Below are positions 34,617 through 63,091 of a stretch of DNA of 64,000 bases, one piece after another (position 1 is the stretch's first letter; each line of letters opens with the position of its first letter). The notes beneath the pieces were generated by a model, which had not been told where the DNA came from, searched no databases, and was given only the letters and a program-made list of their open reading frames with translations. The position numbers and the translations under genes were made by a program. The stretch is from Pseudomonas delhiensis (GTDB lineage: Bacteria; Pseudomonadota; Gammaproteobacteria; Pseudomonadales; Pseudomonadaceae), in NCBI RefSeq assembly GCF_900187975.1, contig NZ_FZPC01000009.1, positions 124,001-188,000 of the forward strand. The letters run 5' to 3'.

Positions 34617-37150
34617 GCCCTGGCCTCCTGGCGTGTTACCTCGGGTGGCACGCCGCGCGTCCGCGCCCAGTACGCGCCGTCGAAGCGCGTTCGGCCATCC
34701 AGGCGCACCTGTGAGAGGTCGGCGCGGAACAGGTTGGCGCGGCTGAAGTCGGCCCCCGGCAGGCGCGCCTTGCCCAGCAGCGCCTCGATCAGGTCGGCGG
34801 CCAGCAGGCTGGCCTCGCCCAGGTCGCTGCGGATGAACAGGCAGCCGCTGGCGTCGCAGTCGTCGAAGTCGGCGCCGCGCAGGCAAGCCTCGGAGAAATC
34901 CGTCAGGCGCAGGCGGGCATGGCGGAAGTACGCCCCGGCCAGTTGGCCGCCGCGGAAACTGCATTGCTCCAGCAGGGTGCCGGCGAACACCGCGCGCTCC
35001 AGGCTGGCCTGGGGGAAGGCGCACTTGCGCAGGCTGGCGCCGCTGAAGTCGGGGCGCAGCGCGGGGCTGCCGATCCAGGCGCAATGGGCCAGGCTGGCCT
35101 GGCTGAAGTCCAGGTCGACCAGGCGGCAGTCGCGCCAGGTCAGCTTGTGCAGCTGGGCCTGCTGGAAGCGGCAACCCTGCAGCAGCGCCTCGCTGATCGC
35201 CAGGTTGTCGAGGCTGGCGCCGTCGAACAGGCAGTCGATCAGGATGACCCGCTCCAGTTCCGTCGAATGCAGGCGGGCGGCGCTGAAGTCGCAGCGCTGG
35301 AAGCGCACCTCGCCGAACAGCGCCCCGTCCAGGCAGGCCTCGTGGAAATCGGCGCCCTCGCCGAACGCCTGGGCCAGGCTCGCGCCCTCCAGCTGCGCGC
35401 CGCGCAGCGAGGCGCCGGTGAGGTCCGCGCGGGCCAGCATGGCCTCCCGGCAGTCGCCGGCGTCCAGCACGCATCTGCTCAGGTCCGCGCCTTCCAGCAA
35501 GGCCTGGCGCAGGCAGGCGCCGCGCAGGTCCAGGCCGGACAGGTCGGCGCCGGTGAGGTCCAGGCCCGACAGGTCGCGGGTGGTGCGCAGGCGTTCTTCC
35601 ACCTGCTCGCGCAGTTCCCTCGCCTGCTCCTGGGGCAGGCGCTCGGCCGCCTCCTGGGCCAGCGCCGCGCGCAGGTACAGGCGGTGCAGCAGGTCCTGGC
35701 TGTGGGCCAGGCGCTCGCCGCTCCATTGCTGCGGTTGCGCAGCGGCGTTCTCCTCCAGCAGGCGGCGCATCCGGCGAATGCCCTCCGGCCCCTTCTCCGG
35801 CGCCTGCTGGATGTGCTGGGCCGACGGCTGTTGGCGCGCCGCCTCGGCGCGCGCCAGGGCGTCGCTCTTGAGCGCCATGGCCTGGGCGTGGACCTGGTCG
35901 TAGAAGGCCGGCAGCTCGTCCAGGCGCGGCGGCGGCAGGCTCGAGGGTGGCAGGTCCGCAGGCATGTCCGCGCGCTCGCCGACGCGGGCCTGGCGCTGCG
36001 CCTGCAATTGCTGGCGCTGCGCCTCGCGACGCTTGAACTGTGGGTGCTCGAAGGCCGGCACCTCGGTGTCGAACCAGGCGCCCAGGGCCTCGGCGGGCAG
36101 CAGGTCGGCGTCGCGGAAGGCGTGCAGGGCGCCGCGTTCCTTGTCGCTGCGCTGCCGCCAGACTTGCTGGTAATGCTCCAGGCCGCGCGGCTGCCCGGCG
36201 CTTTCCAGCGCCGGCATCAGCGCCAGCACGTCGTGGGCATCGTCCTCGGCGATGGGCACGGCGGCGTGGTAGACCAGCACCATCTGCTCGCGGTGCGGGA
36301 ACAGCCACAGCGTGGTCGGGCGCAGGTCGAGCAGTTCGCAGCGCTCTTCGCCGTCCTGCTGGCGCAGCACCAGGCAGCGCGCCCGCCAGTCCGGCAGGCG
36401 GCCCTGCTGGCAGGCCTGGCTGGGGTGCATGTTGCGGATTTCGAAGGCCGCGCCCGGCGGCAGGTGGTCCTGGTCGAAACGCTGGTCGGGCGGCGCCATG
36501 TTGAAGAACCCGGCGTCGCAGTCCTCGGCGAAGCCCTGCCCACCCATCTCCGCATGGCCATCGCCGAGCAGCCGCAGGCGGCACGGCCAGTCGGCCTGCA
36601 GGGGGCCGAAACCGGCGGCGCGGCCCTCCTCCCCCGGCCGCGTCGGCCACTGCGGGTACTCGATGTTGGGCAGCGCCTGTGGTCCGGCCGGCGCCTCACC
36701 GGCGCCAGGCATGCCGCGGCCCAGCGGGTTGTCGGCGCAGCCCTCGCCGCCATAGGCCAGGTCCCAGCCCAGGCGCATCCGCTCGAAGGCCAACGGCGGC
36801 GTGCAGCCATGTTCCGGCGTCCATTGCCGGTCGCCACTCACCCGCAGCGTCTTGCGCAGCCCGCCGAGGGCCAGGCTGACCTCGCAGGCCGTCTTGTCGC
36901 GCTGGTGCGCGGTGCTGGCGAAGCCGCAGGCCAGCACCTCGGCCCTGGCCTTGGGCAGCGCCAGGTCGAGCACCCCGCCGCAGTCGGCCAGTTCCTCGCC
37001 GGCCAGCGACCAGAGCTCCGGTTCCGGCCTGAGCAGGGCCGGGCCCTGCAGGTTGGTCAGCGCCATCGTGGCGATGCCCAGGTAATGCCGTCCGGCCCAG
37101 GTATAAGGTCGGCTGAGAAGTGCGAGTCGAAATGGCTTGACGATTTTCAC
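34613..37150 (-). CDS. DUF2169 / pentapeptide-repeat fusion protein (T6SS adaptor)
   Basis: The 845-residue protein has an N-terminal DUF2169 domain (about 1-330; PFRLALLSRPYTWAGRHYLGI, RLGWDLAYGGEG, NPLGRGM, NMAPPDQRF), a charged, coiled-coil-prone Gln/Arg/Ala-rich middle (about 380-510), and a long pentapeptide-repeat beta-helix (about 520-830; DLSGLDLTGADLSGLDLRGA). DUF2169 proteins are recognized as T6SS adaptors that help load cargo onto the spike. It starts 95 bases after the small 91-residue gene and overlaps the second pentapeptide gene by ATGA. Adjacent repeat proteins of this kind suggest gene duplication with later divergence. Confidence 0.88.
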   Translation of the reverse strand: MKIVKPFRLALLSRPYTWAGRHYLGIATMALTNLQGPALLRPEPELWSLAGEELADCGGVLDLALPKARAEVLACGFASTAHQRDKTACEVSLALGGLRKTLRVSGDRQWTPEHGCTPPLAFERMRLGWDLAYGGEGCADNPLGRGMPGAGEAPAGPQALPNIEYPQWPTRPGEEGRAAGFGPLQADWPCRLRLLGDGHAEMGGQGFAEDCDAGFFNMAPPDQRFDQDHLPPGAAFEIRNMHPSQACQQGRLPDWRARCLVLRQQDGEERCELLDLRPTTLWLFPHREQMVLVYHAAVPIAEDDAHDVLALMPALESAGQPRGLEHYQQVWRQRSDKERGALHAFRDADLLPAEALGAWFDTEVPAFEHPQFKRREAQRQQLQAQRQARVGERADMPADLPPSSLPPPRLDELPAFYDQVHAQAMALKSDALARAEAARQQPSAQHIQQAPEKGPEGIRRMRRLLEENAAAQPQQWSGERLAHSQDLLHRLYLRAALAQEAAERLPQEQARELREQVEERLRTTRDLSGLDLTGADLSGLDLRGACLRQALLEGADLSRCVLDAGDCREAMLARADLTGASLRGAQLEGASLAQAFGEGADFHEACLDGALFGEVRFQRCDFSAARLHSTELERVILIDCLFDGASLDNLAISEALLQGCRFQQAQLHKLTWRDCRLVDLDFSQASLAHCAWIGSPALRPDFSGASLRKCAFPQASLERAVFAGTLLEQCSFRGGQLAGAYFRHARLRLTDFSEACLRGADFDDCDASGCLFIRSDLGEASLLAADLIEALLGKARLPGADFSRANLFRADLSQVRLDGRTRFDGAYWARTRGVPPEVTRQEARA

Positions 37151-54296: not shown

Positions 54297-55208
54297 TCAG
54301 GCCGCCAGGCACTGCTCCAGGCCGGCCTCCAGCCTTTCGCGCAGGCCGGCATCGGCGCTGGCGATGAACACCAGGCAGTTCTCCCCCTCCTGCGCCTGCG
54401 CCTCCAGGAACTGGCTGCGGCCGCCCACGTACTGCAGCCACAACGGCTGTTCGCGGCCGCGGAGCTGGACGCGGCCCTTGAGGCGGAACAGGCCCTCCGG
54501 CAACTGCTCGAGCCAGGCGCGCAGGCGCTGCGGGTCGAGCTGGCCGGTGTGGCGCCAGGTCCAGCTGTCGAACAGCTCGCCGTGGTTCTGCCTGCCCACC
54601 GCCTGCAGGCGCTGCGGGCGGGCGTCCGGGCGTTCGCCGTAGAGCAGCGCGTCGGGGATCTGCGCCTGCACCGTCTGCAGCATCCGCCGCGGCTCGCCGA
54701 AGCGCTGGCGCAGGGCCTGCAGTTGCTCCGGCGCGGCGATGTCGGCCTTGTTCAGCAGCAGCAGGTCGGCCGCGGCCGCCTGGCGCCTTTCCAGTTGCGC
54801 GTATTCGCCTTCCAGCGGCTGGCTGCGAGCGGCGTCCACCAGGGTGACCAGCGCATCCAGGTGCATGTGCCTGCGCAGTTGCGGGTAGCCCAGGGCCTGG
54901 ACGATCGGCTGCGGGTCGGCCACGCCGCTGCATTCGATGACGATGCGCTCCACCGGCGGCTGGACCTGGGCCAGGCGGCCGAGCTGGGCCAGCAGGTCGT
55001 CCTGCATGGTGCAGCACAGGCAGCCGTTCTGCAGGGCGTACACCGCGTCGCTCTGCTCGGCGATCATCTCGGCGTCCACGTTCAGCTCGCCGAAGTCGTT
55101 GACGATCAGCGCCAGGCGCTGCCCGGCGCATTGCCGCACCAGGCGGCGCAGCAGGGTGGTCTTGCCGGCGCCGAGGAAGCCGGCGACCACGGTCACCGGG
55201 ATGCTCAT
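54297..55208 (-). CDS. CobW/G3E-family GTPase, putative metallochaperone
   Basis: The 303-residue protein is a G3E GTPase of the CobW/YjiA/ZigA group. It has Walker A GFLGAGKTTLL at residues 10-20, the zinc- or metal-binding motif GCLCCT (CxCC), ECSG in place of the usual ET-GT, NKAD for guanine recognition, and a C-terminal CobW_C domain (HGELFDSWTWRHTGQLD to LRGREQPLWLQYVGGR). Such proteins insert metals into client enzymes. Its start overlaps the amidohydrolase stop as ATGA, so the upstream metal-dependent amidohydrolase is the obvious client candidate. No Zur box was recognized nearby. Confidence 0.9.
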   Translation of the reverse strand: MSIPVTVVAGFLGAGKTTLLRRLVRQCAGQRLALIVNDFGELNVDAEMIAEQSDAVYALQNGCLCCTMQDDLLAQLGRLAQVQPPVERIVIECSGVADPQPIVQALGYPQLRRHMHLDALVTLVDAARSQPLEGEYAQLERRQAAAADLLLLNKADIAAPEQLQALRQRFGEPRRMLQTVQAQIPDALLYGERPDARPQRLQAVGRQNHGELFDSWTWRHTGQLDPQRLRAWLEQLPEGLFRLKGRVQLRGREQPLWLQYVGGRSQFLEAQAQEGENCLVFIASADAGLRERLEAGLEQCLAA

Positions 55209-56953
55209 CGGTCGTCCCCCATCACCTGCGGCACCTCGCCCTGCCATACCGCCTGCAGCGGGCCGTTGGCGAAGGTGCCCTGGCGGTCGTACACCGGGCG
55301 GCCCTCGACGAAGGTCTGCTCGACCTGGGTACGGTGGATGTAGCCGCGCGGCGGCTGGGCGAAAAGGTTGCGGTCGAGGACGATGAAGTCCGCCGACTTG
55401 CCGGCCTCGATGCTCCCGGTCAGCGCCTCCAGGCCCATGGCGTGGGCGCCGTTGAGGGTCGCCACCTTCAGCGCCTGCTCCAGGCCGATGGGCTCGCCGA
55501 AGCAGGCCGGGTCGTCGTTCCAGGGGTTCTGCCGGGTGACCATGGTCTCCAGGGCCAGCCAGGGGTCGATGGAGGCCACCGGCCAGTCGGTGCCCATCAC
55601 CGCGATGCCGCCGGCGGCCAGCACGCCCTTGTAGTCGTAGATGCGCTTCAGCCGCTCGGCGCCGTAGCCGGAGCGCGCGCCGCTGGCGAAGGGCGTGGGG
55701 TACCAGGCCGCCGGGGAGAACTCGGCGATCACCTCCAGCTCGCGGAAGCGCCTGAGGTTGCCCGGGTGCAGGATAGTGCTGTGCGCGCACTGGTGGCGGA
55801 TGCCGCTGAAGCCGTTGCGCCGGCGCGCCTCGGCCACGGCGTCGAGGAACACGTCGGAGGCGCCGTCGCCGGTGCAGTGGGCGATGACGCGGATGCCGCG
55901 GCGGTCCATGTCCACCACCATGTCGGTGATGTGCTCGGGGGTCAGGTTGAGCTTGCCGCGCCAGCTGTCCTCGCCCGGCCAGGGGCTGATGAGGAAGGAC
56001 GAGCGCGGCTCCACGGTGCCGTCGAAGTGGAACTTCACCGCGTTGGCCGACAGCCGCGCGCTGCGGTAGTAGTGGCGCTCGCCGCCGAGCAGTTCCCAGC
56101 GCCGGCGCACCGGGAAGATGTCGTCCTGCCAGCTGATGGCCGCTTCCACCCGCAGGGTCAGCTGGCCGGCGTCGTCCAGCTCCTTGAGCGCCTGCAGGCG
56201 GCGTTCGCAGACGTGCACGTACTTGCTGGCGGTCACGCCGCGGGCGCTCTGGAAATGCACGCCGTCGCGGTAGGCGCGGCGCAGCACCTCGATGGGCGTC
56301 GGCGGCATGGCGGCGTGGATCAGCGCGTAGGCGCCGTCGATCAGCAGGCCGTTGGGCTCCCCGGTCAGCTCGTCGCGCTCCAGGTAGCCGTTGCGCGGGT
56401 CGGGGGTGCTGGCGTCGATGCCGGCCAGCGCCAGGGCGCGGGAGTTGGCCATCATGGTCCCCCACATGCGGTCGAGCAGCGCCACCGGGCGGTCCGGCAG
56501 CACGCTGTCGAGCCACTCGCGGCCCGGCTTCAGCCCGGCCTCGCGGAAGGTGTAGCGCACCCAGTACTGGCCGTAGACCCAGCCGTCGCCGGGGTGGCTG
56601 TCGGCGTAGGCGCGGATGGCCGCGGCCAGTTGCTCGGGGCTCGGGTCCTCGATGCCCACGTCGAGGTCGTCGGCGTAGCGCGGCGCCAGGGCCAGGTCCG
56701 GGTGGGTGTGCATGTCGTGCAGGCCGGGCATGCAGAAGGCCCCGCCGAGGTCGTGCTGCAGGGTCCGCGGCCCCACCAGGTGCTCCAGCGCCTCGGCGCG
56801 GCCGACGGCGAGGAAGCGGCCGTCGCGGATGGCCACGGCCTCGGCCCAGGGCTGCGCCGGGTCGAGGGTGTAGAAGCGGCCGTTGCGCAGCAGCAGGTCG
56901 GCGTGGCGGTTGGCAGGCGAATGGGACGAACGGAAAGTATCGGGCGCCGTCAT
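55205..56953 (-). CDS. YtcJ-type metal-dependent amidohydrolase (amidohydrolase_3)
   Basis: The 582-residue protein is a TIM-barrel amidohydrolase of the YtcJ-like group. Metal-site residues visible are HDMHTHPD (HxH) near residue 80, later HCTGDG and HQCAHS histidines, and the catalytic Asp in GTDWPV; C-terminal LTGSIEAGKSADFIVLDRN is the usual composite beta-domain return. No signal peptide. The substrate is not evident; many relatives act on N-substituted formamides or other amides. Start 56953 follows GGGAG. It heads an operon with the CobW-type gene and diverges from an AraC gene. Confidence 0.88.
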   Translation of the reverse strand: MTAPDTFRSSHSPANRHADLLLRNGRFYTLDPAQPWAEAVAIRDGRFLAVGRAEALEHLVGPRTLQHDLGGAFCMPGLHDMHTHPDLALAPRYADDLDVGIEDPSPEQLAAAIRAYADSHPGDGWVYGQYWVRYTFREAGLKPGREWLDSVLPDRPVALLDRMWGTMMANSRALALAGIDASTPDPRNGYLERDELTGEPNGLLIDGAYALIHAAMPPTPIEVLRRAYRDGVHFQSARGVTASKYVHVCERRLQALKELDDAGQLTLRVEAAISWQDDIFPVRRRWELLGGERHYYRSARLSANAVKFHFDGTVEPRSSFLISPWPGEDSWRGKLNLTPEHITDMVVDMDRRGIRVIAHCTGDGASDVFLDAVAEARRRNGFSGIRHQCAHSTILHPGNLRRFRELEVIAEFSPAAWYPTPFASGARSGYGAERLKRIYDYKGVLAAGGIAVMGTDWPVASIDPWLALETMVTRQNPWNDDPACFGEPIGLEQALKVATLNGAHAMGLEALTGSIEAGKSADFIVLDRNLFAQPPRGYIHRTQVEQTFVEGRPVYDRQGTFANGPLQAVWQGEVPQVMGDDR

Positions 56954-56981
56954 CTCGGTGCTCCCTTGTCGTTTTGCGCCG

Positions 56982-57010
56982 AGTATAGGGAGCTGCCAGC
57001 GGCCGCGGAC
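56982..57010 (-). promoter_or_regulatory. Promoter candidate of the amidohydrolase-CobW operon
   Basis: On the minus strand TATACT (plus-strand 56982-56987) is a near-ideal -10 hexamer, 29 bases before the amidohydrolase start. The -35 position (57005-57010, GTCCGC) is poor, which is typical of promoters needing an activator, and the adjacent 21-bp direct repeats supply a binding site for one. Confidence 0.55.
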
Positions 57011-57048
57011 TAGCATAAGATGACAACTCGCTAGCCTCAGATAACAAC
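57011..57048. promoter_or_regulatory. AraC-type operator: two direct repeats, 21-bp period
   Basis: TAGCATAAGATGACAAC (57011-57027) and TAGCCTCAGATAACAAC (57032-57048) agree at 14 of 17 positions with starts 21 bases apart, two helical turns, the geometry AraC-family dimers use. The first repeat abuts the -35 position of the divergent amidohydrolase promoter; the second ends 7 bases before the araC-type start codon. Confidence 0.75.
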
Positions 57049-57055
57049 AACATCC

Positions 57056-58099
57056 ATGCCCGACCAGCAGTCCGAGATCGACTACGCCGCGCGCCAGCTG
57101 TACCAGCGCTTCCTCGAGGAATGGCAGGCCCGCCCGCACCTGCCGCCCCTGGCGCCGCTGCTCGCCGGCCTGGGCGTGCCGGCCGCCGAGGCCGCCGCCG
57201 GCATGACCTTCGCCCGCTACTACCGCCTGCTGCGCCAGGCCGCCGGGCTGCTCGGCGCCAGCGACTTCTTCCTGCGCCTGGGCCAGCGCTACAACCTGTT
57301 CGACCTCGGGGTGATCGGCTACGCGCTGATCAGCGCGGCCAACCTGCGACGCTCCTGGGACATCTCCCTGGGCCAGCCCTCCAGCCTGCTGCCCCACCCC
57401 ATCCACGTGGCCCGCGAGGAACACGGCGAGCACCTGGTGCTGGCCCTGCAGGCGCCGCCCTACAGCCCGATGGAAAGCCAGGCGCTGCTGGAGGAATGGT
57501 TCAGCAGCACCTGGCGCTGGCTGTGCCAGCGCCTGCCGGAGCTGGCCGAGTGCGACGGCATGCAGGTGCGCCTGCCGTTCGCCGCGCCGGCCCACGCCGC
57601 GCTCTATGGCGACATCTTCCCCGGCCGCGTGGAATTCGCCACCAGCCGCGCCGAACTGCGCATCCCCAGGGCCTTCCACGACCGCCCCTTCTCCACCTCC
57701 AACCCCTCGGTGCTGCGCCTGTGCCAGGCCCAGGGCGCGGCCACCCTGGCCAGTTTCGAGAGCGGCGAGGCGCTGCCCGACGACCTGCGCTTCTACCTGC
57801 TGCAGAACGCCCGCGTGCCGCTGCCGGACCTGGAGCAGGCCGCCGCGCACTTCCGCCTGCCGCCGCACACCCTGCAGCGGCGCCTGCGCGCCCACGGCCT
57901 GACCTTCAAGGGCGTGGTCTACGAGGTGCGCATGGCCCTGGCCGAGCGCTACCTGCTGGCCAGCCACATGAGCCTGCAGGAGATCGCCTTCCTGCTCGGC
58001 TACGAGCACGTCACCAGCTTCCACCGTGCCTTCCTGCGCCATGCCGGGACCACCCCGGAAGGCTTCCGCCAGCGGCGCGCGCAAGCGCGCCAGGAGTGA
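57056..58099 (+). CDS. AraC-family transcriptional activator (OruR-like)
   Basis: The 347-residue protein has an arabinose-binding-like N-terminal domain of the OruR group (residues about 20-200; AAGMTFARYYRLLRQAAGLLGASDFFLRLGQRYNLFDLGVIGYALISA) and a C-terminal double HTH (LPDLEQAAAHFRLPPHTLQRRLRAHGLTFKGVVYEVRMALAERYLL; LQEIAFLLGYEHVTSFHRAFLRHAGTTPEGFRQRR). It likely activates the divergent amidohydrolase-CobW operon and represses itself through the 21-bp repeats. No ribosome site precedes the ATG; the operator occupies that space. It lies 4 bases before the LysR gene. Confidence 0.92.
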   Translation: MPDQQSEIDYAARQLYQRFLEEWQARPHLPPLAPLLAGLGVPAAEAAAGMTFARYYRLLRQAAGLLGASDFFLRLGQRYNLFDLGVIGYALISAANLRRSWDISLGQPSSLLPHPIHVAREEHGEHLVLALQAPPYSPMESQALLEEWFSSTWRWLCQRLPELAECDGMQVRLPFAAPAHAALYGDIFPGRVEFATSRAELRIPRAFHDRPFSTSNPSVLRLCQAQGAATLASFESGEALPDDLRFYLLQNARVPLPDLEQAAAHFRLPPHTLQRRLRAHGLTFKGVVYEVRMALAERYLLASHMSLQEIAFLLGYEHVTSFHRAFLRHAGTTPEGFRQRRAQARQE

Positions 58100-58103
58100 C
58101 CCC

Positions 58104-59036
58104 ATGCGTTTCCCCTCGATGACCGCCCTGCGCGTGCTCGACGCCGTCGCCCGCCTGGGCAGCCTGTCCGCCGCGGCCAGCGAGCTGAGCCTCACCCGCA
58201 GCGCGGTGAGCCACCAGTTGCACAGCCTGGAGGACTGCCTGGGCACCGCGCTGATCGAGAAGGCCGGGCGCGGCATCGTGCTGACCTACCGCGGCGAATA
58301 CTTCGCCCGCGAGACCCAGCGCGCCCTGGCCATCCTCAACGAGGCGCGGCGCTTCACCGACGCCCAGGAGATCGCCGGGCGCCTGTGCGTGAGCTGCACC
58401 CCGGGCTTCGCCACCTACTGGCTGTGCCATCAGATCGGCCAGTTCCAGCGCGCCCACCCGCAGGTGGAGCTGAACCTGGTGGCGCCGCGCATCCCCGACG
58501 ACGTCAGCAACCGCGACGTCGACCTGTTCATCGCCTACGGCGTGGGCGACTGGCCGGACCTGCACGTGGAGCTGATCGCCACCCTCGACACCTTCCCGGT
58601 GTGCAGCCCCTCGCTGCTCAACGCCGCCGGCGGCCTGGACTCGCCCGAGGACCTGGCCAACCTGCCGCTGCTGCACATGGTCGACCACTCCGACTGGCTG
58701 CTGTGGGCCGCGGCCGCCGGGGTGCGCGACCTCAACGTGCGCAACGGCATCGTCTTCTCCGACGCGCACCTGGTGCAGTCGGCGGCCATCGCCGGCCAGG
58801 GCGTGGCCATGGGCGACGCCCTGGTCAGCGGCGACGCCATGGCCAAGGGGCAGTTGGTGCGGCTGTTCAACGTCTCCATCGAGCCGCCGAACCGCTACTA
58901 CTTCGTCACCGACGCGGCCAAGACCGAACGCCCCGACGTGCAGGCCTTCAAGGCCTGGATGAAGGCCGAGCTGCGGCTGTCCGAGCAATTCCGCAAGGGC
59001 AGCCGCGGCGGCGTGATAGGTGAAGGAAACAGGTGA
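58104..59036 (+). CDS. LysR-family transcriptional regulator (GcvA-like)
   Basis: The 310-residue protein has the N-terminal LysR HTH (MTALRVLDAVARLGSLSAAASELSLTRSAVSHQLHSLEDCLGTALIEKAGRGIVLTYRGE) and a periplasmic-binding-like effector domain (LCVSCTPGFATYWL, DLFIAYGVGDWPDLHVE, MVDHSDWLLWAAAAG). This arrangement, especially the HSDWLxW stretch, is common in GcvA-type regulators. The ATG at 58104 has GGAG upstream. It lies between an AraC gene and an ABC importer in the same direction, so control of the importer is likely. Confidence 0.92.
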   Translation: MRFPSMTALRVLDAVARLGSLSAAASELSLTRSAVSHQLHSLEDCLGTALIEKAGRGIVLTYRGEYFARETQRALAILNEARRFTDAQEIAGRLCVSCTPGFATYWLCHQIGQFQRAHPQVELNLVAPRIPDDVSNRDVDLFIAYGVGDWPDLHVELIATLDTFPVCSPSLLNAAGGLDSPEDLANLPLLHMVDHSDWLLWAAAAGVRDLNVRNGIVFSDAHLVQSAAIAGQGVAMGDALVSGDAMAKGQLVRLFNVSIEPPNRYYFVTDAAKTERPDVQAFKAWMKAELRLSEQFRKGSRGGVIGEGNR

Positions 59037-59164
59037 AGGAATTTGAACAATGACGGCGAAAAAACGCGATTGAAGCGAAGAGGGATTTGACAATACTGCG
59101 CAAAAGGGCTGCTGACCGAAGGGTCGGCAACCCGAGAAGAACAAGAAAAAACGAGGTAAATGCA

Positions 59165-60250
<1,086 letters not shown>

Positions 60251-60311
60251 TCGCCGGGGCGCCCGCGCGCGCCCTCCCCCTTTCGCCATCCCCTGTCTGG
60301 GAGCTGCACAC

Positions 60312-61427
60312 ATGTTCAACCCGCACCAGCAAGACTGCATCGAAGTCCTCATGGACAAGGCCCGTCGCGGCCAGGTCGACCGCCGCACCTTCCTCAAGGG
60401 CATGGGCCTGCTGGCCGCCCTGCCCCTGGCCCTGCGCAGCGGCGTCGGCTTCGCCGCCGGCGACAAGCCGCTGGTGGTGGTGAACTGGGGCGGCGACGCC
60501 ATCAAGGCATTCGGCAAGGCCTGGACCGAGGGCTTCTCCAAGGCCACCGGCATCCCGGTGAAGATCGACGGCAGCGGCCCCACCGAGGGCGCCATCCGCA
60601 CCCAGATGAGCAGCGGCCGGGTGAGCTGGGACGTGGTCGACGCGGAAAGCTCCATCCTGCAGAACCTCGGCAAGGAAAACCTGGTCGAGCCCATCGACTA
60701 CAGCATCGTGTCGAAGGACAAGGTGCTGCCCGGCTTCGCCTACGAATACGGCATCGCCGACTACATGCTCAGCTACGTGATCGCCTACGACAGCGAGCGC
60801 TTCGGCGACAAGGCGCCGAAGACCTGGAAGGACTTCTGGGACGTCGAGACCTTCCCCGGCAAGCGCACCCTGTACAAGTGGATGAACGGCATGCTGGAAG
60901 CCGCGCTGCTGGCCGACGGCGTGCCGGCGGACCAGCTCTACCCGCTGGACGTGCCGCGGGCGCTGAAGAAGATCGACGAACTCAAGCCGCACATCCTGGC
61001 CTTCTGGGGCTCGGGCGCCGAGACCCAGCAACTGTTGATCGAGGGCGAGGTGAGCATGGGCGCGATCTGGAACACCCGCGCCCAGGTGATCACCGAGGAC
61101 AGCGAAGGGCGCATCAAGTGGAACTTCGACAACGCCCTGCTCGGCTGCAGCAACTGGGGCGTGCTCAAGGGCAACCCGGCGGGCAAGGACGCGGCCATGC
61201 GCTTCATTGCCTACGCCCAGGACCCGCAGTCCCAGGTGGAACTGTTCAAGCTGTTCGGCAACGGCCCGGCCAACCCCGCCGCCGCCTCGCTGATCCCGGC
61301 CGACCGCAGGCACCTGAACTGCACCGACCCGGACAACCTGCCGCGGCAGATCATGCTCAGCCACGAGTGGTACACCGACCACTACGCGGCGACCCTGGAG
61401 CAATACCTGACCCACGTTTCCAAGTGA
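60312..61427 (+). CDS. ABC importer substrate-binding protein, polyamine type, Tat signal
   Basis: The 371-residue periplasmic protein begins with a twin-arginine signal (VDRRTFLKGMGLLAALPLAL, RR at about residues 24-25), so it is probably exported folded. The mature part is of the PotD/spermidine-putrescine type (VVVNWGGDAIKAFGKAWTEGFSKATGIPVKID; VSWDVVDAESS; GSGAETQQLLIEGEVSMGAIWNTRAQ). The ligand may be a polyamine or another cationic or amide compound. It follows the ATPase gene by 61 bases. Confidence 0.9.
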   Translation: MFNPHQQDCIEVLMDKARRGQVDRRTFLKGMGLLAALPLALRSGVGFAAGDKPLVVVNWGGDAIKAFGKAWTEGFSKATGIPVKIDGSGPTEGAIRTQMSSGRVSWDVVDAESSILQNLGKENLVEPIDYSIVSKDKVLPGFAYEYGIADYMLSYVIAYDSERFGDKAPKTWKDFWDVETFPGKRTLYKWMNGMLEAALLADGVPADQLYPLDVPRALKKIDELKPHILAFWGSGAETQQLLIEGEVSMGAIWNTRAQVITEDSEGRIKWNFDNALLGCSNWGVLKGNPAGKDAAMRFIAYAQDPQSQVELFKLFGNGPANPAAASLIPADRRHLNCTDPDNLPRQIMLSHEWYTDHYAATLEQYLTHVSK

Positions 61428-61437
61428 GGTGAGCGCC

Positions 61438-62271
61438 ATGGCGGAGAATCCTTCGCGGCTGAAGCTGGCCTTCCTGCTGGCGCCGCTGCCGCTGGTGCTG
61501 CTGCTGTTCTACGTGCTGCCCTTCGCCGGGGTGGTGGGCTGGAGTTTCAGCCTGCCCACCCCGGGCATCGAGCAGTACCAGCGCATCGCCAGCGACCCGG
61601 CGATCCACGACGTGCTCTGGCGCACCTTCCGCCTGTGCACCACGGTGAGCGTGGCGTCGCTGCTGATCGCCTACCTGATGGCCTACTGCTGGGTGTACAG
61701 CCCGCCGTTCTGGCAGCGCATGGTGGAAATCTGCGTGTTCATCCCCTTCTGGCTGTCGGTGCTGGTGCGCGCCTTCGGCTGGCTGATCGCGCTGCGCAGC
61801 AACGGCCTGCTCAACGGCTGGCTGCAGGCCCTGGGCATCACCAGCGAGCCGCTGCAGCTCACGCGCAACGAGCTGGGCGTGGTGATCGGCATGGTCCACT
61901 TCATGGTGCCCTTCGCGCTCTTCCCGCTGGTCTCGACCATGCGCCGCCTCGACCCGCGCGTGCTGCTGGCCGCGCGCGGCCTGGGCGCCGGGCAGCTGCG
62001 CACCTTCTGGAGCATCTTCGTGCCGCAGACGGTGCCCGGCATCCTCGGCGCCTTCATCATCGTCTTCGTGTTCTGCCTGGGCTTCTTCATCACCCCGGCG
62101 ATCCTCGGCGGCGGGCAGACGGTGATGGTGGCCGAGTACGTCTACCTGCAGATGTTCCAGACCAGCAACTGGGGCCTGGGCGCGGCGCTCAGCGTGGTAC
62201 TGCTGGCGCTGGTGGCCGGGCTGATCTGGGCGCTGCTGCGCATGACCCGCGTCGATAAACTGGTGGGCTGA
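61438..62271 (+). CDS. ABC importer permease 1, polyamine type (PotB-like)
   Basis: This 277-residue protein has about six transmembrane segments and the binding-protein-dependent permease loop EAA-like sequence (AARGLGAGQLRTFWSIFVPQTVPGIL). It pairs with the next gene to form a heterodimeric channel. ATG 61438 is chosen since GAGG lies 8 bases upstream; a GTG at 61429 is possible. Gap of 10 bases after the binding-protein gene. Confidence 0.92.
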   Translation: MAENPSRLKLAFLLAPLPLVLLLFYVLPFAGVVGWSFSLPTPGIEQYQRIASDPAIHDVLWRTFRLCTTVSVASLLIAYLMAYCWVYSPPFWQRMVEICVFIPFWLSVLVRAFGWLIALRSNGLLNGWLQALGITSEPLQLTRNELGVVIGMVHFMVPFALFPLVSTMRRLDPRVLLAARGLGAGQLRTFWSIFVPQTVPGILGAFIIVFVFCLGFFITPAILGGGQTVMVAEYVYLQMFQTSNWGLGAALSVVLLALVAGLIWALLRMTRVDKLVG

Positions 62272-62275
62272 CGAG

Positions 62276-63091
62276 ATGAACGCACACGAAAGCAAGGCAC
62301 CAAGCCGCCTGCTCGCCGCGATGGCGATGATCTTCATGCTGTTCCCGCTGCTGGCGGTGATCCCGGTGTCCTTCACCGGCAAGCGCTTCCTCTCGATGCC
62401 CGACGGCAACTGGTCGCTGCGCCACTACAAGGCGCTGCTGGACAGCCCCGAGTGGCTCTCGGCGGTGGGCCAGAGCCTGGTGGTGGCCAGCGCCACCTGC
62501 GTGGTCGCCACCGCCCTGGCGGTGAGCTTCGCCCTGGGCATCTGGTACCTGCGCTCGCGCTGGGCGACCCTGCTGATCGGCCTGGTGCTGCTGCCCATGG
62601 CCATCCCGCCGATGATCTCGGCGATGGTCCTGTACTTCATGGAAACCACCGTCAGCAAATTCGCCCCGGGCCTGGGCTACGACACCCTGTTCGGCCTGAC
62701 CATCGCCCACATCGTGATGGTGGTGCCCTACGGCGTGGTGACCATGCTGGTGGCGCTGAGCCAGCTGGACCGGCGCATCGAGCTGGCCGCGCGCAACCTC
62801 GGCGCCAGCCTGGCACAGACCACCTTCCTGGTGGTGCTGCCGAACCTCAAGCTGGGCGTGGCCAGCACCGCGCTGCTGTGCTTCGCGCTCTCCTGGGAAG
62901 AGATCGCCGTGACCCTGTTCGTCACCAGCACCGAGGTCAACACCCTGCCCCGGCAAATCTGGTCGGGCCTGCGCGACAACATCGACCCGGCGGTGGCGGC
63001 CATCTCGGTGCTGCTGATCGCCCTCACCCTCCTCGCCCTGCTCGGCCGCATGCTCGCCGGGCGCGCCGCCGCAAGGCCCGCCGGGCACTGA
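62276..63091 (+). CDS. ABC importer permease 2, polyamine type (PotC-like)
   Basis: The 271-residue protein has about six transmembrane segments and the conserved cytoplasmic loop (AARNLGASLAQTTFLVVLPNLKLGVAS). The LPMAIPPMISAMVLYF and GLTIAHIVMVVPYGVV segments are typical of PotC-like partners. It starts 5 bases after the first permease stop and is the last gene of the operon; a 20-base-pair hairpin follows. Confidence 0.92.
   Translation: MNAHESKAPSRLLAAMAMIFMLFPLLAVIPVSFTGKRFLSMPDGNWSLRHYKALLDSPEWLSAVGQSLVVASATCVVATALAVSFALGIWYLRSRWATLLIGLVLLPMAIPPMISAMVLYFMETTVSKFAPGLGYDTLFGLTIAHIVMVVPYGVVTMLVALSQLDRRIELAARNLGASLAQTTFLVVLPNLKLGVASTALLCFALSWEEIAVTLFVTSTEVNTLPRQIWSGLRDNIDPAVAAISVLLIALTLLALLGRMLAGRAAARPAGH

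Follow-up and report, generated by a model that had tools for sequence, protein, structure and literature searches.

How is the amidohydrolase–cobW gene pair of Pseudomonas delhiensis controlled, and does the AraC-family regulator encoded beside it take part? In this work, a stretch of 64,000 nucleotides of contig NZ_FZPC01000009.1 (positions 124,001–188,000, hereafter the window) was analysed, in which the amidohydrolase gene and araC diverge from a gap of 102 bases between their starts at 56953 (minus strand) and 57056 (plus strand). Positions are those of the window, and the minus strand is the one that reads towards amidohydrolase–cobW. Two 17-base direct repeats stand in this gap (Table 1), and we consider it highly likely that they form the operator through which the adjacent PF12625-type AraC protein activates the amidohydrolase–cobW operon from a class II position. 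In the proposed mechanism, the two repeats would be the operator of this AraC/XylS-family regulator, with a dimer placed over positions -35 to -72 of the divergent promoter. This promoter combines a good -10 with the lack of a usable -35, and so the bound AraC protein, with its proximal subunit at the -35 position, would recruit RNA polymerase. The inducer would probably be the amidohydrolase substrate or a related compound, and the CobW protein, judged from the position of its gene, may deliver metal to the amidohydrolase. The -10 of araC itself may also lie under the proximal half-site, in which case the regulator, once bound there, would limit araC expression as well.

The two repeats are identical at 14 of 17 positions with a period of 21 bases, just as an earlier note on this DNA had described them. 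On the minus strand, the order is distal half-site, four bases, proximal half-site and then TATACT. Short repeats of two copies often arise by chance, and 8 of the 63,962 start positions in the window reach 14/17 at period 21, clustered in three places (35987–35990, 56308–56309 and 57010–57011). The two other places span 35987–36027 and 56308–56346, the second of them inside the amidohydrolase gene. However, dinucleotide shuffles of the 102-base gap gave at least 14/17 at period 21 in 0 of 2000 cases (and at any spacing of at least 17 in 1 of 2000), the phasing is fixed in 23 of 23 genomes, and the repeats are tied to the presence of AraC. A chance repeat without function was rejected on the shuffles, and the comparative data make it extremely improbable. 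The alternative explanations considered here are not mutually exclusive, and in part they share ground with activation by AraC, so that their probabilities do not sum to one. With the pattern derived from the operator, allowing at most three mismatches, one match was found in the window against 0.03 expected. A generic repeat finder did not report the repeat pair, and reported one inverted pair instead. This imperfect pair (56902–56916 and 56993–57007, 15 bases, 80% complementary) has one arm in the -10/-35 spacer and is probably due to chance, because that spacer is poorly conserved.

The hexamer TATACT (minus strand, 56987–56982) matches TATAAT at five of six positions, one short of the perfect -10 that the earlier note had claimed. 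Its description of the -35 as poor agrees with the sequence, since GTCCGC (57010–57005) matches TTGACA at one position of six. At the 17-base spacing, this -35 hexamer and the proximal repeat have one base in common, and therefore the statement that the repeats abut the -35 is a fair one. The A at 56975 is a plausible natural +1 for the predicted amidohydrolase transcript.

An orthologue of the AraC protein was present in 23 of 25 genomes of the same genus, and the operator pattern (at most three mismatches, as in all genome searches below) was found beside araC in all 23, with no mismatch in 21 and one in the remaining 2. Neither of the two genomes without AraC carried a match to the pattern, and neither holds an amidohydrolase orthologue, their best-scoring matches showing 30–34% identity. 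In the P. delhiensis genome, the operator is the sole match. In one genome (G020), araC is split across contigs and the operator sits on the amidohydrolase contig. The named records bearing the regulator are P. citronellolis, P. panipatensis, P. jinjuensis, P. schmalbachii, P. pseudonitroreducens, P. nitroreducens and P. nicosulfuronedens, and the regulator records including other Pseudomonas species amount to 13 loci in all. Locus L023, whose contig begins inside araC, was omitted from the 22-sequence alignment and from A1; its upstream region lies on another contig and was included in the site comparisons as L094. Locus L007 was omitted from A1.

The class II arrangement consists of two direct half-sites at a period of about 21–22 bases, with the proximal one overlapping or abutting the -35. 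The period is 21 bases in 23 of 23 genomes, and, measured against the predicted promoter, the proximal half-site lies at -35, since its distance from the -10 is 22 bases in all 23. On the araC side, the distal half-site and the start of the gene are 5 to 25 bases apart, depending on the genome. Because the spacing to the amidohydrolase -10 is fixed while that to araC varies, the operator is likely to serve the amidohydrolase promoter. The -35 hexamers at spacings of 16–18 bases match the consensus at 0–3 of six positions across the 23 genomes. The phasing, the short gap to araC and the kept gene block support amidohydrolase–cobW as the predicted target, with the operator in a class II position (-35 to -72).

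Conservation was also compared by column. All nine columns of CCCTATACT (56982–56990) are invariant in the 23 genomes, the -10 reaching 2.00 bits. The proximal half-site has 14 of 17 columns invariant (mean 1.92 bits) and the distal half-site 9 of 17 (mean 1.49 bits). A baseline of 1.28–1.44 bits came from four-fold codon sites in the three genes (cobW, araC and the amidohydrolase gene) of 20 fetched flanks, not of all 23 genomes, so the distal half-site as a whole stands barely above it. Nevertheless, its two boxes clearly exceed the baseline (CTAGC, 5/5 columns invariant, 2.00 bits; 57043–57047, 1.67 bits), whereas its 7-base middle, at 1.00 bits, does not. The corresponding middle of the proximal half-site has 1.88 bits, and CTAGC is the invariant box of both half-sites. 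In contrast to the -10, the seven bases downstream of it have 0.42 bits, and the -10/-35 spacer has 0.93 bits with 1 of 17 columns invariant. All 23 sequences from the -10 to the distal half-site differ from one another.

The search for the amidohydrolase across the class (E 1e-120, 274 genomes) returned only the P. delhiensis genome itself, and therefore the family was searched. Here, the amidohydrolase was found in 53 of 398 genomes (E 1e-150), 30 of which belong to other genera and encode proteins of 66–86% identity. None of these 30 genomes holds an orthologue of the AraC protein, although a distant AraC paralogue with E 1e-30 or lower occurs in 12 of them, the strongest at 1.2e-38. In 28 of the 30, the operator pattern had no match, and in the other 2 the three-mismatch matches, of near-identical sequence, lie within the background of a control pattern written backwards. 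By direct reading of 21 of the 30 loci (9 were not fetched), AGTATAGGG was absent from the 230 bases upstream of the amidohydrolase in all 21, and the best resemblance to the operator was 14–23 of 38 bases. A same-genus positive control (L133) gave 34 of 38 bases, with the -10 element and the operator both present. Judged from these comparisons, there is no credible operator site in the 30 other-genus genomes. Since genomes that bear the amidohydrolase and lack the AraC orthologue show no credible site, the site follows the regulator and not the amidohydrolase; the co-occurrence across the 25 same-genus and 30 other-genus genomes thus ties it to this AraC protein.

The same loci bear on whether the repeats could belong to the nearby LysR protein or to another factor. 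A LysR gene lies beside araC (from 58104), and in three other-genus loci (L142, L144 and L152) a LysR gene, its product 59–60% identical to that of the window, is directly divergent from the amidohydrolase. On the other hand, LysR was not matched at E 1e-30 in 14 of 20 fetched flanks of the genus, yet those genomes keep the operator, and the LysR-divergent amidohydrolase loci have no operator. LysR was rejected as the owner of the repeats for these two reasons, and we regard ownership by LysR or any other factor as very improbable. An ATTGTTG/CAACAAT dyad was observed in the LysR–amidohydrolase gap of L142 and L144. The occurrence of LysR or AraC at the same position looks like a change of regulator, and the replacement could have gone in either direction.

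Taken together, the co-occurrence with AraC, the fixed spacing to the -10 and the kept gene block support the prediction of the earlier note that the AraC protein, from an operator placed as in class II activation, drives the amidohydrolase and CobW genes. Several points weigh against this interpretation. Binding, control of expression and the start site are predictions from sequence. The search pattern was derived from the same sites that it recovered, and the 23 genomes represent one genus, whose shared ancestry inflates raw conservation; the four-fold baseline and the variable spacer control for this in part. The backward control pattern, also at three mismatches or fewer, matched once in 6 of the 25 same-genus genomes and had matches in 5 of the 30 other-genus genomes, and one genome (G016) shows four extra matches of the forward pattern in a short tandem array. 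A generic sigma-70 scan of 56800–57300 detected no promoter. AraC may instead exert repression or dual control. Finally, the plus strand of the half-sites reads TAGC-N6-TGACAA, which resembles the half-sites of E. coli AraC and, on that reading, would point to araC. The tandem array of G016 (contig C9, near 262128–262185) consists of short GCGACAA repeats and yields false operator matches.

The last of these points concerns the direction of the half-sites. Read towards the amidohydrolase, they have the form TGTY-N7-GCTA. The letters by themselves fit either direction, and we favour as likely the one that faces this gene, with TGTC as the first box and GCTA as the second. If they were instead read from TAGC to GACAA, the dimer would face araC and would reach the amidohydrolase promoter from its rear, if it serves that promoter in any way. 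In E. coli AraC, the half-sites have TAGC as their first box and at araI1–I2 are of the TAGC-N7-TCCATA type (PMC4514859, excerpt); here TAGC forms part of the box that is invariant in both half-sites. However, the 5–25 bases from the operator to the araC start leave no room for a -35 and a -10 of araC downstream of the operator. Forward class II activation of araC was rejected on this ground. Furthermore, the half-sites of XylS (TGCA-N6-GGNTA; PMC4514859, excerpt) and SphR (TGNCC...; PMC3900636, excerpt) begin with TG, as TGTY-N7-GCTA does. For a PF12625-like paralogue of the genus (L166–L184), 19 of 19 loci conserve TGGC-N8-ACC twice, with a period of 22, between the paralogue and its divergent gene, and in all of them the repeat reads towards that divergent gene on the facing strand. 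Of 20 fetched paralogue loci, one (L185) was excluded as its start motif was not found. The support from the paralogue for the direction is modest, because the 19 loci are near-identical and the promoter direction is not established there. One copy of the paralogue repeat fits the CdpR-type half-site RGWYNNNWNCGGCCA (motif as quoted in PMC8151288, excerpt), so the footprint approach does find AraC-type sites. We therefore consider a dimer facing araC unlikely.

It could also be that the operator is that of AraC, and that AraC represses the amidohydrolase promoter or acts mainly on its own gene. In favour of this, the operator reaches the -35, the possible araC -10, TAAGAT (57016–57021), may lie under its proximal half, and conservation of the middle is higher in the proximal than in the distal half-site. 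However, -35 matches of 0–3 in six in 23 genomes suit an activator better than a repressor, and the phasing is held to the amidohydrolase -10 and not to araC, so that we judge repression of this kind to be quite unlikely. Under activation of amidohydrolase–cobW by AraC, an araC -10 below the proximal half-site would add autorepression and would be a plausible cause of the conserved middle. This remains a guess, because the first T of TAAGAT is C in 3 of the 23 genomes and no conserved -35 was seen with it. By searching the genome for a wider regulon, no second site was found at up to three mismatches, although weaker sites would escape such a search; the regulon is apparently of a single target.

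This layout is already known from AraC, XylS, MtlR and SphR, while the regulator/operator pair itself is new. In the XylS/Pm system, the sites of XylS and RNA polymerase reportedly overlap. In the E. coli AraC system, the araI1–I2 half-sites have a 21-base period and are placed beside the -35, and araO2 is the looping partner site. The absence of a second similar site from the P. delhiensis genome at three mismatches or fewer thus gives no sign of a looping partner, and a further difference from E. coli AraC is that TAGC lies on the opposite strand here. The same period is found at Pm of Pseudomonas putida, where XylS binds the direct half-sites TGCA-N6-GGNTA-N6-TGCA-N6-GGNTA with a period of 21 (PMC4514859, PMC5481539, excerpts), and TGTY-N7-GCTA falls into the same 15-base frame. 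Unlike in XylS/Pm, the first box is TGTC or TGTT, the regulator has a PF12625 ligand domain and the predicted target is an amidohydrolase–COG0523 pair. By comparison with the XylS operator boxes, no TGCA was found, and the second box is GCTA, with a leading G in some distal sites only. The position of the blocks resembles that at PmtlE of Pseudomonas fluorescens, where the two 15-base blocks of MtlR extend from -72 to -58 and from -50 to -36; counted from the predicted +1 in the 15-base frame, the blocks here lie at -71 to -57 and -50 to -36. Unlike this operator, that of MtlR has the boxes AGTGC-N5-AGTAT and AGTGC-N5-AGGAT with a period of 22 (PMC4514859, excerpt) and belongs to a mannitol system. 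SphR, an AraC-family regulator of Pseudomonas aeruginosa, offers at sphA a comparable case of TG-starting direct half-sites, a tiny regulon and a predicted -10 with a far-from-consensus -35, but it differs in its half-site TGNCCSNNRNNSNCC, with 6–8 bases between copies, its sphingosine ligand and its three target promoters (PMC3900636, excerpt). The CdpR-type half-site of P. aeruginosa also differs in sequence from the operator described here. A literature search, with most subscription journals outside its coverage, had no publication on this regulator or operon among the matches listed.

Table 1. Genes, half-sites and predicted promoter elements of the amidohydrolase–araC region (window coordinates).
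Feature	Position	Strand	Remarks
Proximal half-site	57010–57026	-	reads TTGTCATCTTATGCTAG on the minus strand and CTAGCATAAGATGACAA on the plus strand; spans -35 to -51 relative to the predicted +1
Distal half-site	57031–57047	-	reads TTGTTATCTGAGGCTAG on the minus strand and CTAGCCTCAGATAACAA on the plus strand; spans -56 to -72 relative to the predicted +1
-10 hexamer TATACT, amidohydrolase–cobW promoter (predicted)	56982–56987	-	within CCCTATACT, 56982–56990
-35 position at 17-base spacing, GTCCGC	57005–57010	-	1/6 to TTGACA
Predicted transcription start, A	56975	-	7 bases downstream of the -10; invariant in 23/23 genomes
Possible araC -10, TAAGAT	57016–57021	+	inside the proximal half-site; weak
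Amidohydrolase (Amidohydro_3), predicted target	55205–56953	-	Pfam PF07969, E 2.3e-75; ATG at 56953
COG0523/CobW-type GTPase	54297–55208	-	Pfam cobW PF02492, E 1.4e-50; CobW_C PF07683, E 5.6e-19
AraC-family regulator	57056–58099	+	Arabinose_bd PF12625, E 1.9e-18; HTH_18 PF12833, E 3.7e-19

The regulator has the domain content of the AraC/XylS family, with Arabinose_bd at residues 33–211 and HTH_18 at residues 263–340, and among solved structures 5chh is the closest to it in sequence (E 8.3e-16). Its scores against the NCBIfam equivalogs are far below their cut-offs (QhpR, 116.2 of 250 bits; GliR, 97.7 of 570; CypR, 92.8 of 500), and thus it has no curated name in NCBIfam. For the amidohydrolase, the search among solved structures gave 14 sequences, the best being uncharacterised metal-dependent hydrolases. 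The start codon of cobW overlaps the amidohydrolase stop codon (ATGA). The translated GTPase carries the P-loop GFLGAGKTT and the CxCC motif as CLCC, which together with its cobW and CobW_C domains place it in COG0523; against the cobalamin-synthesis CobW model TIGR02475 it scored 168.1 bits, below the cut-off of 332.1. The amidohydrolase–cobW/araC block is present in all 20 fetched same-genus flanks, and cobW adjoins the amidohydrolase in 20/20 of these flanks and in 19 of the 21 other-genus loci (L132 and L134–L153), the exceptions being L145 and L147. The 6-kb locus of L147 yielded no cobW, and its amidohydrolase match spans residues 1–337 only. As the two genes stay adjacent, the gene order suggests that the COG0523 GTPase is a dedicated metal-delivery partner of the amidohydrolase.

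If this holds, a COG0523 GTPase may serve one client enzyme, and the inducer offers a route to the substrate of the amidohydrolase. The analysis also provides, down to the bases, a complete and apparently single-target prediction of regulator, operator and promoter for an AraC protein that has no curated name. The LysR gene found in the position of AraC in three relatives is a mild evolutionary surprise. Tentatively, and with less confidence than in the activation itself, we hypothesize that the amidohydrolase–metallochaperone operon has changed hands, being under a divergent LysR in some relatives and here under a lineage-restricted PF12625-type AraC with a one-site operator. One half-site would then be both the activator site and the cover of the araC -10, and it would tie regulator and target together in a switch of one site, with an inducer that reports the substrate.

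Directly after araC in the window lies a GcvA-like LysR gene (58104–59033). Together with a polyamine-type ABC transporter (potA, potD and two permeases), it forms a block at 58104–63091, which stands beside araC in 6 of the 20 same-genus flanks.

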